A stretch of DNA of 64,000 bases from Hyaloscypha bicolor E (Eukaryota; Ascomycota; Leotiomycetes; Helotiales; Hyaloscyphaceae): contig NW_020194560.1 of assembly GCF_002865645.1 (NCBI RefSeq), forward strand, positions 992,001-1,056,000. The letters are read 5' to 3'. The notes beneath the pieces were generated by a model. It saw only the letters and a list, made by a program, of their open reading frames with translations. It had not been told where the DNA came from and did no database searches. Position 1 is the stretch's first letter. Each line of letters begins with the position of its first letter. The translations under genes were made by a program, and so were the position numbers. Positions 9,789 through 16,410 of the stretch are shown here, in pieces.

Positions 9789-11374
9789 CTAGATTGGATG
9801 TTTAGTGATGTTATAGAGTGATGGAATGGAGGATAAAATACCGAGATCACCTGGGTACGCAACTGGAGGTGTGTCTGTCTCGCCCAATCGCATTGATTCT
9901 AATGTCGTTGTTATTCCAGTTGTAGAATCGGTGTGGTATGGCAATCGCATGTTGTGACTCTTTATCTCAGAAAACAAGTCCTTACGGACTAAGTCGATCA
10001 TCCGCAATAGAATTCTTTCCTGTACCTGCAATAAACGGAAAGCTCCAGGTTCCCGAATATAGACATCAGGGGGACGCCAAGCAACATAGACTTTGTTGTG
10101 ACTAGCCGGAATTGCGTAATGGCTTGGGTGGTGGGTGATATACATGTGGCATAAATAGCATGCTGGCTTGCTGCAGCCAATGTATTTCTCGCCCTGGCCC
10201 AGAAAGTTGCAAGAATTTCGTTCGAAATGATCGATAAGGAGCAATTCGGCGTGAACTCTCGTCTTAGTAGCTCGTTCACGTTGCAGAAAGCTGTCTATTT
10301 CCTTTTCTTCCGGAGACACGAGCGACCTGAGCCGTTCCATGAACTCGGCTTTCTTTGAAGAATCCGAAAACATACGATGAACAGTGCGCTCTATCGTTGC
10401 TTCCTTCTTGCCTCGGAAGGGAAGTTGTTGTGGTACTGACGAGCGTACTGTTTTCACAGTAAATCCCTGAGCAAAGTCTTGCGCAAGCTTTGTTGCCGCT
10501 TCGGTTAGTGTCTTTGAGGACTTGAGAGGCTTCCCAAGTTTGCCGAGTAGTTTATAAAGCCGTTCAAATGTTTCGTGCCGTGTCCGCCCTTGCCCAGCAA
10601 ACATGCTAACAGTCTTCAAGTACTGAGTGTGTCTAATGTCATAGCAAGCTTTGGATAAGTCGAAGAGACTTGGTCCTGTACATCCTCCAGTGTCATCGCC
10701 AAAGTATTTCCTGAGCCACTGTTGCAAGTTGTTAACCTCGAGTGCACTCCTGTCTCTGTCCGTAGCTCCTGCCAAGCTTTAGCGAAATAATGACAACACA
10801 CCCTGGCAATGCTAAACTTACCGTTGCCCCTAACGTAGCCTGTCATGAGTTCATGGCAAGGAAGAATGCATGATTTGATAATCTCTGCACGGTACGCATT
10901 GAGTCTTGGAGCTTGAAAATCGACAATCATAGATGCAAGCCTTTGGGTTGCCAGTGAAGCTTCCTGGTGTAAGTCCTCCATACTGTCTTTCTCGACAACT
11001 CGATACACGCATGCCAAAACCCCCTTCAAGAAAGTGACGACCCCCTCTTCAACATCGGCGTTAGCGCAGAGCCAGACTACAACACCCTGGGGGGTCTTCT
11101 CTAGAGCGGCTGCAGCGACGTGGTCAGGCCCCTTTCGGTAGGCACAGATGTAGGCGATGGCGTTTGTGAAAGACCGTCGGAGCTGGATATGATTTGATTC
11201 TGGATCATCGGAGATTATCTCGGATTTGATTCTTTCCCCCCGTATCGGACTAAGGGCGTGAAGGAGTAATAGTGGTTCGTAAAACCTCCTAGTTACCTTA
11301 TGCCGTATCGGAGAAATACCTAACGGTCTTGGCATTGCCAGATTGCTTTCCTGCTGATCGATAGCCGGTGGCAT
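9789..11374 (-). CDS. Cytidine-deaminase-fold protein (OTT_1508-like deaminase type), 510 aa
   Basis: Two exons, 11374-10822 and 10768-9789, are joined by a 53-bp intron with a GTAAGT donor, a CGCTAAAGC branch region and a GGCAG acceptor. This resolves two overlapping frames into one intact protein of 510 residues. The C-terminal half carries a zinc-dependent deaminase signature: RVHAELLLIDHF (His357, Glu359), then GCSKPACYLC (Cys388, Cys391). The HAE plus PxCxxC arrangement with this spacing is what I associate with the fungal OTT_1508-like deaminase domain (Pfam PF14441). The first 300 residues are alpha-helical in character and unrecognised. There is no signal peptide or membrane segment, so it is probably cytosolic or nuclear. 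Substrate is unknown; this superfamily includes nucleic-acid and nucleotide deaminases. It is transcribed divergently from the Dicer-like gene, 722 bp away. Confidence 0.75.
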
Positions 11375-12096
11375 GAGCTGGATTCATTGGATGCACAGCT
11401 GTTCGGTCAGTAACCTTGTCGCTGATCTAAAAATTAAAAATTGCAGTATCTCACCTTCAGATGCGTTCCGTCTCTACCTTTTGCACAGTATATAGTCTTT
11501 TCACTCTGTTCGGCGGCTGCAATGAACACTCATATTAAGGCAATAAGTTTGGTATTGGGTTGACATTCTGATGCGAGACCCAGGTTTACCCACCCATACG
11601 ATCGAGCATCACCCCCTTAAACCCCGCAATACCAATAACAATGAGAGAATCGAGAAGAAGCAAACCGAATTCTGAGGGCGCCAGTCGGCCTCCAGTGGGC
11701 CTCAAAAGTGAGGCTGTCTAACGAGTTTTCATCCAATTAAGGTCGAGTAGCTTACAATTTCCTAAGACCTATAAGAGGCTTCTGCGAGTGAGGCGAACTT
11801 CATTGGTGTCAATTTCTGCATAGCTATCCTTATGTAGTTCGTGCTCCATAATGATTCGCGAGGCTGTGTTGATGAGTGAGCATTTTCGTGAACCAGATCT
11901 AAGATTAGAAATTTAGGTTGAATTTTTGGATTCGGAATGTGTTCCTAATTTTCCAGCCCCATTTAATAGGAATTTTATGTCATCTTGACCAGCGATCTCT
12001 TTTGGAGAGTGTTTTCGATTAATGATTCTGATTATCAAGAAGTTTATACTTCTTATTAGTTTGTTTACACACCTTATAGACGAAACTATCCGAAAG
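11375..12096. promoter_or_regulatory. Shared divergent promoter region of the deaminase and Dicer-like genes
   Basis: 722 bp between two start codons facing away from each other. Composition is normal with no RIP signature and no convincing gene. The sequence must hold both promoters, which allows co-regulation. I see no specific operator. Confidence 0.5.
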
Positions 12097-15000
12097 ATGG
12101 CCACGCTGGGACTACTTGCAGAGACAAATATACGCCCCCGGGCTTATCAGTTAGAGATGTTGGAAGAAAGTCTTAAAGGAAACATCATCGTTGCTGTCAG
12201 TGAAGCCATGGGCTCGAAGAGATGAGTGTTGACGAATTAACAGATGGACACCGGAAGTGGGAAGACTCAAATGTAGGTCTAACTCTGGTGAAAGGACACA
12301 ACATAACTAATTTCAATTGCCATGGTAGAGCCGTACTACGCATTTCTGCAGAACTTGAAATCTGTCACGCTTCACAGGTTATCTATATCTGCCCATCTGC
12401 ACTCACTACTGCTACTGATAATTACTAGATAATATGGTTCTTGGCTCCAACCGTTTCACTTTGCGAACAACAATACAGCGTCCTCTCTCTTCACCTACCA
12501 ACGGTAGGAATAAGGCTATTGTTGGGTCGTGACAATGTCGACCGATGGAGCTCGCAGCATATCTGGGATACTGCACTCTCTGGAGCGCGGATAGTAGTAT
12601 CTACGCATGCAGTTTTGGCTGATGCGTTAAGTCATGGATTCGTAGTCATGGCAAAGTTGGCACTCTTGATATTTGATGAAGGTGAGCATCCTTCTTGCTT
12701 TCCAACTCGGTTAATCATATGACCCGACAGCGCACCACTGTGTCGGTAACCATCCCGCCAACAAGATTATGAAGGGATACTATCACCACCGGGGGGCAGA
12801 GTTGGGTTTAAATTCCAGACCCAAGATTCTAGGCTTGACTGCCAGCCCCATTGTAAGGTCAAAACCGAAAGATCTTCGGTAGGTTGAACTCCACGCGCTG
12901 AGTTTTCCTTCGATGTATAATCTATGGTATTCACTAACTTATTGCACCAAAGAGTCATCGAGGTTAATTTGGATTCAGTCACCAAGACTCCTCGCATCAA
13001 CCGACAGGAGTTGACCCGGCATGTCCACGTTCCTGAGCTGGTCGAAATTGTCTACTCTGAAGATTGTCTTAGCTCCAAAACAAGGTCTTCTATATTGGAA
13101 TTGCTACTCGACCGTGTCCAAGACGCCGAAAACCAATGGTCGAAGTACAAACTTTGTCTCCTATCAGCAGAAGAAATCGCCGGGCTCTCTACAAGCTCTC
13201 TGAGAGTGCGAAATTGGAGCACTTCCGCACAAGAACAGCTAAAGAGGTTCTCTGCTCGGTCTCGATATATTCAACAAGAACTTGGAGCCTGGGCTTCTGA
13301 CTACTATATTACCGCCACAATCTCTCGGGCAACATCATGTATGCATTCACAACAAAATGCACGCCTCGACTGGAAAGATGAAGAAAGGATCCACATCCTC
13401 AATACGCTAGGGCAAATTCGAGTTGCCGAGTCCCTAAACCCTCCGTCACTCCAAAAGATCTCAAATAAATGTGACTCTCTCTTTCAATTCTTGAAAAGTG
13501 CTTATAAAAAGGATTTCCGTGGCCTTATATTTGTCAAGCAGCGAGTGACTGCCATTGCACTTTGCCAACTTCTCTCACAACACCCCGAAACGAAGGATCT
13601 CTTCAGCAGCGGTACATTCGTAGGTACCTCGACAAATCAAAGTAGAAAAACGGAATTGGCCGATCTCCTGGATCAGAAATGCCAGAAGGAAGTACTAAAG
13701 AACTTTCGTGAAGGCAGCAAAAATATTATCATCGCCACCAGCGCCCTCGAGGAGGGCATTGACGTATCAGCATGCAATGTAGTCATCTGTTTCAACAAGC
13801 CGCCAAATTTGAAGTCGTTCATTCAAAGGCGGGGCAGAGCAAGACATGAGAAGTCTACATTCATGATCTTGCTATCTTTGGGTGATAATGCAGATCTGGG
13901 AGCAGCCTGGGAGAGAATGGAGTCTAAGATGGTTGAGGAGTATATGAGAGAGTCACGACAGTTAGATGATGAAGAGGGCAGACTTCTTGATGAGATCGAG
14001 GACGACTCTATGACTTTGAGAGTTGAATCGACTGGGTTGGTAAAAATTCACAAAGGCCTCTTACATGGCTAACTTCCCCAGGGCGAGACTCACTCTAGAC
14101 GATGCTGTAGGACATTTACACCATTTCTGTGCAACATTGCCTGTCTATCGCTACGCTCATAGCCGCCCAACATTCACCTACCAAACGGAATTGACAGGTC
14201 GCATCCGGGGATTTGTGACACTTCCAAACTCAGTTCATCCCTCGGTTCGTCAAGCATCATCGCTCCGTAGCTGGCAAAAGGAGAATATGGCAGCCAAAGA
14301 TGCAGCATTGCAAGCCTATGTGGCACTGTACAAAGCTGGTTTATTGAATGATAATCTATTGCCATTGATGCCAGGAGATGTGTTCGAAGAGACGAAATCC
14401 GCAGAAGATTTATCTTCCATGGTTAAGATTCAACAACAACACAATCCGTGGCTTGACATAGCCAAGAAAAGCGCTACTACCAAAAAAAGATACCTCAATC
14501 CCGTCAAGGTTCGGGTCGCAAGCGAAGTGGTCCTTTCGACAAAGCTCACCCTTCCGACCCAAATATGTTCACTGCCGTGGTCTCCATTGCCAGAGCAAGG
14601 GATCCGGTGCGAAATTTGCATCGATGACTCAGAAGAGATTACAGATCCGGACAATTTTCATCTTGGTTCATGTCAAGCCAGCACAAGATCAATGTTACGG
14701 CAAGTCCACGGCACTCGTATCACTGTCTGCCACAATGGTTTCTTAGTCCAATTCACACCGCCGATAACACAAGATGAGCTTAGAGCATGGATTCGGCAAT
14801 CTTCGACTGAAAATTTCGAAGTGCCCCGTGATGCTGGTCTAGAACGCCACCCCGGGGCACGTTCAACGGTGCCTCTCGTCACCATCCCTATATCTCAGAA
14901 ATCAGAAGTGACAAGCGCCACAAAATGGCTACACAATCCCAATCGATTCGCTAAATTTGCGCCACACATAATTCATTGTCTAGAAACCCTATTGTTGGGT

Positions 15001-16410
15001 GAGGAAATGGTGGACAGACTCCACCTCAACGTACACTTACGAAGAGTAGACCTGGTTGCACAAGCCCTCTGCTTGCCCTCTGCCAATGCTCTGTCAAACA
15101 ATACTCGTCTTGCCTTTCTCGGCGATACCGTATTGGATTTTCTTGTCACGAGCAAACTATTTGCTGCACATGCCACTTGGCACGAGGGGTATCTTTCTGC
15201 TAAGAGAAAGTTAATCATCTCAAACGCACATATATCAAAAATGGCTCTGCAAACCGGACTAGATAAGTTCATCATTACTAAGTCTTGTCAGAAAAGGTCT
15301 TCGGAATCTCCAAAAAGCCCAGACATCTATTTTGATGATATTGGAAGAACAAGATACCTTTCAAGGACGGCAATAGCGAATGTTGTTCAGGCTATAATCG
15401 GCACTGCGTATCTACAAGGGAAGCTCAAAACAGCTCTCCAGTGTGCCCAGGTCTTCACACCAGAGCTCTTAGAACATCCTGCGGATTGTTCTCTAAGGAT
15501 GGCCTGCGGTCGACGAGAGTCGGCTGGAGTCCCTCATTTTGGGCCATTGGAAAAGTTGTTAGGATACAAGTTCCACAACACCTCAATCTTGACAGAAGCA
15601 ATGACACATCCTTCGTGTGAACAAGACCTGACAACCTATTCATATGGAAGATTAGCAGTCCTTGGCAGCAGTGTTCTGAGTATGACTATTGTTCAATCTT
15701 TATATCCCGGGACCGAAATGATTTCAAGCAACCAGCAACAACTTCTCCGGGCCGCTACCATCAACAAGGGGTTTTTGGCTTTTATCTGTATCGACACTTC
15801 TTTAGATCTGGATTTTTACGATATCCAGGAATCTGGCCCAAGTCGATTTTGTGAAGTACGGCGCCAAAAAAAAAACCCTTTATGGAGTTTTATGAGGCTT
15901 GGTCACTTTGAAATCGCGCCCGACAGAGCGGAATTCCTCCAAAAGCATACCGAAACCTGTCAAGGCATTCGACTTACACTAGCCTCGGGTATGACCTACC
16001 CTTGGCAAGACCTTGCAAATCTGGAGGCCAACGCATATTTCTCCGACATCGTGCGAAGCTTATTTGGCGCGGTGTATGCTGACAGCAATGGAGATGTACT
16101 CCAATGTTCTCTGCTCGCTGAGAAACTCAAAATACTCCCTATTATGCGTCGATTATTGCACGATAATGTGGACGTCATGCACCCAAAAAACCGGTTGGGG
16201 GAAATGGTTGGCGATCTGAGCGTAACTTACAGAACAGATTCAACACCAGCAAACAATTATCGTTGCACAGTTCGAGTAAACGGAAAACAAATTGGAGACC
16301 CTCAAACAGCCCCTTGTAAACAAGGAGCTACGATCAGAGCCGCAGAGCAAGCTCTTAGGATTCTAAGGAGTAACCTGGAGACTTCACCTATTAGTTCTTA
16401 CATGGAATAG
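12097..16410 (+). CDS. dcl2: Dicer-like protein (DCL2 type), 1329 aa, with degenerate RNase III active sites
   Basis: Seven exons (12097-12195, 12244-12272, 12329-12377, 12429-12681, 12731-12878, 12953-14035, 14082-16410) join in one intact frame. Domain order: DEAD helicase with Walker A DTGSGKT (35-41), DEAH (142-145) and GLTASP; helicase C with QRRGRAR (484-490); Dicer dimerisation domain ([18 protein letters not shown]); RNase IIIa; RNase IIIb; C-terminal dsRBD (NRLGEMV...AAEQALRIL). No PAZ seen. The canonical E-D-D-E metal-binding set reads Ala898, Asp902, Asn987, Gln990 in IIIa and Ala1079, Ser1083, Asp1209, Arg1212 in IIIb, so six of eight acids are gone. Family role: dsRNA cleavage in antiviral RNA silencing. 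Here I infer dsRNA binding or ATP-driven sensing without cleavage. The ATG at 12097 was chosen over 12022 because homology-like sequence starts there. No RIP signature. Confidence 0.88.

Follow-up and report, generated by a model that had tools for sequence, protein, structure and literature searches.

Can a full-length Dicer lose both of its RNase III active sites and still be kept by its lineage? The question is raised by a gene at 12097-16410 of a 64,000-nucleotide stretch of the Hyaloscypha bicolor E genome (the window; G000:C26:992001-1056000 in a genome of 82.0 Mb and 76 contigs), for which an earlier note had proposed a complete Dicer-like protein, degenerate at both RNase III sites and selected as a non-cleaving Dicer. 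Here, we found that seven exons splice into a single open frame of 1329 amino acids (aa), a DCL2-type Dicer, and that its metal-binding quartets read ADNQ in RNase IIIa (residues 898, 902, 987, 990) and ASDR in RNase IIIb (1079, 1083, 1209, 1212), where EDDE/EDDE is normal. The first part of the proposal is confirmed by this; the second is weighed below.

Results

A complete Dicer with two degenerate sites

The exons indeed give one open frame, as had been claimed. All six introns are of the GT...AG type and 46-74 nucleotides (nt) long, and the start and splicing match, by eye, those of the annotated Hyaloscypha finlandica protein P0003 (1328 aa), so that frame errors and mis-splicing are unlikely. 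A weak donor, GTTGGT, opens the last intron (14036-14081), which is removed in the annotated P0003 and P0008 and retained in frame in the annotated Phialocephala subalpina protein P0007 and in several metagenome open reading frames (ORFs). In the window gene this intron is 46 nt long and must be spliced out.

Motifs, Pfam and a predicted model together give the architecture of the Dicer family, i.e. a superfamily 2 (SF2) helicase with intact motifs, a dimerisation domain and tandem RNase III folds (Table 1). From the earlier list of domains, the helicase motifs and the dimerisation domain stand, and the double-stranded RNA-binding domain (dsRBD) is seen in the AlphaFold model but has no Pfam match in our scan of exons 6 and 7. 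The same scan gave no match to PAZ; the predicted model aligns with mammalian Dicer across the PAZ region. In domain order, helicase motifs, dimerisation domain and its two RNase III folds, the protein is like DCL2 of the Pezizomycotina, and the DCL2s with complete sites among the matches listed share about 29-36% identity with its C-terminal half.

Are the catalytic acids truly missing? Three protein searches (best 120 listed of 185, 200 and 621 matches above threshold) yielded 303 proteins, which were aligned with the window protein and the DCL2 of the same genome (305 rows). The window residues fall on the columns of the E40/D44/D107/E110 quartet (Aquifex numbering); the six acids reported as lost (898, 987, 990, 1079, 1083 and 1212) are lost in these columns, and D902 and D1209 are kept. 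HMMER alignment to the solved human Dicer IIIb and Drosha IIIa gave the same placement, and intact or replacement acids elsewhere, an objection foreseen in the earlier note, were absent from the aligned motifs. A motif misalignment is ruled out by these solved structures, as well as by the identical columns of 267 relatives, in which the acids are intact. The other rows comprise 26 degenerate proteins (window included), 11 proteins truncated or gapped at the sites and one (P0173) with a single D-to-N change. Because 267 of the 268 proteins readable at all eight positions outside the degenerate set keep all eight acids, the degeneracy goes beyond chance; the window Dicer lacks the full quartet that marks catalytically active DCL1 and DCL2 in both domains.

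Repeat-induced point mutation (RIP), previously dismissed as the explanation, is ruled out by the codons at five of the six sites, and the losses are common to other species as well. The dismissal does not extend to D987N, the sole change that could be purely of RIP type. Aligned Drosha IIIa chains carry N at the D107 position, so D987N by itself may be tolerated, and it is the other five substitutions that carry the weight.

One old clade

In a tree of 62 rows, computed with the eight catalytic columns removed (the 26 degenerate proteins, a hand-picked 35 of the 279 other proteins, and the DCL1 of the same genome as outgroup), all 26 degenerate proteins lie on one side of a single branch (100/99), and the 35 sampled proteins lie outside. 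The outgroup branch is very long (4.87), leaving the exact root unsure. A topology in which ten active helotialean DCL2s group with the 26, the set having been defined after the tree had been viewed, was rejected by the approximately unbiased (AU) test (p-AU 2.3e-108); in tree and test alike, the window Dicer does not belong to the helotialean active DCL2 clade. A recent duplication of the genome's own DCL2 is ruled out by the AU test and by an identity of 33-35% to that protein. The window Dicer is thus an old paralogue and no recent copy.

Its close relatives P0001-P0011 are 78-88% identical to it. Three degenerate orthologues bear organism names (residues 560-1329): H. finlandica P0003 (86%), P. 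subalpina P0007 (82%), which is annotated as 'related to Dicer-like protein 2', and H. variabilis P0008 (81%); the other 22 besides the window protein come without one.

The order of the losses can be read from the same alignment. In IIIb, all 26 proteins have Ala in place of E40 and either Gln or Arg in place of E110, so that by parsimony the loss of IIIb dates to the base of the clade or earlier. IIIa was lost by two routes: 23 proteins have Ala or Ser in place of E40, and the remaining three (P0019, P0020, P0124) have Ser at both the D44 and the D107 position. A parsimony count alone does not fix the IIIa state at the base, but since the active DCL2s outside have intact IIIa acids, two separate IIIa losses are the simplest reading of these residues. 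The IIIa changes D107N (14/26) and at E110 (8/26) arose later, and basal members with ADDE in IIIa retain three of four acids (D44, D107, E110).

Constraint on the degenerate Dicer

Is the gene retained or dying? Within a clade of 13 degenerate proteins around the window protein (clade 1; tree length 1.03 changes per site), 20 of the 97 sites that are conserved in active DCL2 and kept were variable, compared with 331 of 608 among the remaining sites (Fisher p 3e-10). With a nonsense/missense ratio of 0.054-0.062, about 46 nonsense changes would be expected over some 770 sites without constraint, and none was seen in the 13 proteins, a count biased by ORF-based discovery and by partial entries. 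The rows are open over the stretches that they cover; some are partial ORFs, and P0125 has only 513 aa. One scan of viral contigs and one of genome contigs, with six peptide patterns each, found nothing encoding a relative.

From this genome to that of P. subalpina, the distance is 0.226 for the degenerate Dicer and 0.939 for the active DCL2, and the slow divergence of the former would reflect either constraint or interspecies transfer. Differences in the RNase III domains relative to those in the helicase gave ratios of 1.40-1.69 in all six degenerate pairs and 0.63-0.91 in seven of eight hand-chosen active pairs (shift z = 3.7; four rows each, the active set including P0218). The relative constraint has shifted from the nuclease to the helicase, which is the best-kept part.

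RNA interference loci in the same genome

A genome search with PF00636 placed RNase III domains at four loci: the window gene; a DCL1-like locus (C58) with EDDE/EDDE in the alignment of its 533-aa RNase III part; a locus (C3) encoding a DCL2 of 1447 aa as spliced in this analysis, also EDDE/EDDE; and one (C46) with a single RNase III domain. The C3 locus is the second, complete-site DCL2 for which the earlier note had advised looking. Piwi domain matches occurred at four loci and RNA-dependent RNA polymerase (RdRP) domain matches at six. With complete-site DCL1 and DCL2, Piwi and RdRP loci found, the RNA interference (RNAi) machinery is, as judged from these matches, present beside the window Dicer, including two Dicers with complete sites.

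Stop codons inside several Piwi and RdRP matches may be introns or damage. The Argonaute (Piwi) locus G000:C34:388794-389560 (minus) holds the most stops among the four, five and two within its matches, and may be broken or RIP-mutated; two further Piwi loci hold one stop each, which may be introns.

For the genome's active DCL2, the metagenome protein P0219 (57% covered, 15 members) is a partial match at 99% identity, and the best listed match of the degenerate Dicer is at 88%; strain presence/absence variation is a possible cause of this contrast, as is mere sampling. The 120 best matches listed for the own DCL2 include no active DCL2 under a Hyaloscypha name, a result of little weight since only about a quarter of the proteins are named; the best named match is from Stipitochalara longipes (69%).

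Features and surroundings of the gene

Table 1. Coordinates of the degenerate Dicer gene and its features in the window
Feature	Position	Strand	Details and basis
Degenerate DCL2-type Dicer gene	12097..16410	+	exons 12097-12195, 12244-12272, 12329-12377, 12429-12681, 12731-12878, 12953-14035, 14082-16410
Exon 2, helicase motif I MDTGSGKT	12244..12272	+	spliced translation
Helicase motif II DEAH	exons 4/5, split by the intron preceding GLTASP	+	spliced translation
Helicase motif III GLTASP	12832..12849	+	spliced translation
Helicase motif VI QRRGRAR, within the exon 6 Helicase_C domain	13824..13844	+	PF00271, E 9.5e-17
Dicer dimerisation domain	14104..14367	+	PF03368, E 9.1e-25
RNase IIIa domain, quartet A898/D902/N987/Q990	15106..15420	+	PF00636
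A898 (GCC), E40 position of IIIa	15112..15114	+	codon check
N987 (AAT) to Q990 (CAG), D107 and E110 positions of IIIa	15379..15390	+	codon check
RNase IIIb domain, residues 1043-1225, quartet A1079/S1083/D1209/R1212	15547..16095	+	own boundaries; PF00636 match 15649-16086, E 8.6e-6
A1079 (GCA) to S1083 (AGC), E40 and D44 positions of IIIb	15655..15669	+	codon check
D1209 (GAC, D107 kept) to R1212 (CGA, E110 lost), IIIb	16045..16056	+	codon check
C-terminal dsRBD-like fold (helix, three strands, helix)	16168..16380	+	AlphaFold model

The gene lies in an island of 44-47% GC (10-16 kb); the GC content is 17-39% at 1-10 kb and 16-28% at 20-45 kb, as expected of RIP-mutated repeats. At 9789-10778 (minus), 1.3 kb upstream of the Dicer start, an open frame directed away from the Dicer gene encodes an OTT_1508-like deaminase domain (PF14441). 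A frame at 10616-11383, with no Pfam match, overlaps it and may belong to the deaminase gene. As a functional partner of the Dicer the deaminase is a weak candidate, since matches to its family occur 16 times across the genome, and the pairing may be accidental.

Discussion

The substituted positions are metal ligands, and Aquifex variants at the lost positions are described as binding RNA without cleaving it (PMC8138440). Foldseek matches include the Aquifex D44N, E110K and E110Q crystal forms with double-stranded RNA (dsRNA) or its product, and the human DICER1 residues E1705, D1709, D1810 and E1813 are reported as metal-binding cancer hotspots (PMC6695490). The window protein very probably does not cleave, and retained dsRNA binding would be the expected state, given what studies of Aquifex, Drosha and human Dicer show for these positions.

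What, then, may such a protein do? As the best reading, which we hold tentatively, we propose an old, retained, non-dicing, dsRNA-binding Dicer-helicase that acts as a sensor or cofactor. An old DCL2-like lineage would have lost dsRNA cleavage and kept fold and helicase; the protein would load on dsRNA, e.g. mycoviral or RdRP-made, through helicase, dimerisation domain, nuclease fold and dsRBD, might spend ATP on travelling along the duplex or clamping it without cutting, and might thereby assist the active DCL2/DCL1-Argonaute-RdRP pathway of the same cell or send it a signal. Its role would be that of a Dicer-derived counterpart of the RIG-I/DRH-1-type helicases. This proposal builds on what we observed: the anatomy, the loss of acids, the single clade, the conservation and the co-existence with complete-site Dicers. 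That the gene is kept as a non-cleaving Dicer and is not dying is well supported by the sequence comparisons, namely the single clade, the conservation and the co-existing DCL1 and DCL2, so that the selection suggested in the earlier note stands in this part; D987N, taken singly, may not inactivate.

Several observations weigh against the sensor or cofactor proposal. Of the 30 sites conserved in canonical proteins and switched in clade 1, 20 are variable there. H. variabilis, at a path of 0.239, lies no closer to the window Dicer than P. subalpina does, which disfavours simple vertical descent, and interspecies transfer could partly account for the slow divergence. The eighth active pair (own DCL2 and Stipitochalara P0218), with a ratio of 1.38, adjoins the degenerate range, and the helicase comparison comprises only four full-length degenerate proteins whose pairs share sequences. 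Finally, the inactivity of the basal ADDE relatives is less sure than that of the window protein, and some of the lineage may still nick.

We can further speculate that the lineage is a helotialean pseudo-Dicer specialised as a fungal dsRNA receptor, which arose from a Dicer by one IIIb loss and two separate IIIa losses and in which ATPase sensing triggers or tunes antiviral RNAi with the RNA left uncut; this is possible, if rather doubtful. A competitor or decoy, i.e. a dead Dicer that holds dsRNA, damps the small interfering RNA output of DCL1 and DCL2 and shields some transcripts or limits RNAi, is unlikely. A fold that binds without cutting would act in this way by default, the lost positions equal those of the Aquifex variants (PMC8138440), and complete-site Dicers exist in the same genome, but the strong helicase conservation suggests more than passive blocking, and a passive decoy would fit the helicase bias less well than a sensor or cofactor that uses ATP.

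Less likely again is a pseudoenzyme acting as partner or stabiliser of an active Dicer or of some other RNAi protein. In a Dicer, both RNase III domains pair with each other in the same chain, so that no obvious free dimer face is left, and no partner is known; in favour are the RNase III folds kept in the predicted model and the precedent of the trypanosome proteins KREPB6-8, which are non-catalytic and serve their endonucleases in this way in editing complexes (PMC9508840).

An altered nuclease, with residual or re-shaped metal binding that permits nicking of one strand or cutting of another RNA, seems improbable. D902 and D1209 remain, basal relatives retain D44, D107 and E110 in IIIa, and residue 906 of IIIa (15136-15138), four past D902 and thus probably one helix turn on, is D in 13 of 13 clade-1 proteins, as in IIIb, against K in active DCL2. 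However, E110 is gone from both domains of the window protein, the aligned motifs show no new acids, and each RNase III domain requires its own catalytic acids. In favour as well, the Mucor protein R3B2, whose RNase III signature is non-canonical, still requires that domain for its function (PMC4395119). A decaying gene, with constraint gone and acids drifting, is very improbable: RNase III changes faster relative to helicase than in seven of eight active pairs, the switched sites are mostly variable and the gene adjoins AT-rich, RIP-like DNA, but clade 1 has stayed open where covered despite about 1.03 changes per site and some 46 expected stops (a biased estimate), canonical conserved sites remain conserved, the degenerate Dicer is slower than the active DCL2 between the same two genomes, and the loss is common to 26 proteins of one clade.

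How does the window Dicer compare with known systems? RIG-I-like and DRH-1 helicases sense dsRNA by a Dicer-type helicase without dicing and are not known to have tandem RNase III domains. KREPB6-8 combine an RNase III motif with a zinc finger, are not known to have a Dicer-type helicase and, unlike the window protein, pair with a separate active subunit. Like it, they have RNase III folds without key catalytic residues, described as kept for complex assembly (PMC9508840). R3B2, an RNase III-like protein of a Dicer-independent pathway, is likewise a fungal RNAi protein without the canonical RNase III signature, but is described with one RNase III-like domain, needed for function, and two dsRBDs, no helicase being mentioned (PMC4395119). 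A 2025 survey of fungal Dicers treats domain architecture and mentions two or three paralogues in some species (PMC12663654); its main text uses 'inactive', 'degenerate', 'hyaloscypha' and 'phialocephala' zero times and 'catalytic' four times. Among the top-ranked open-access papers listed, we found none that describes a lineage of full-length Dicers lacking both sites, subscription papers being outside our scope. Non-catalytic RNase III proteins are already known, whereas a degenerate full-length Dicer lineage appears undescribed in the literature searched.

In summary, fungal tallies of 'Dicer-like proteins', including the annotated P. subalpina gene, contain probable non-dicers. The window Dicer would be a natural protein that separates the two jobs of a Dicer, the recognition of dsRNA and its cutting, both nuclease sites having been lost long ago and the rest kept. 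Such a lineage would allow the role of a fungal Dicer-helicase in antiviral sensing or RNAi control to be tested directly, apart from dicing.
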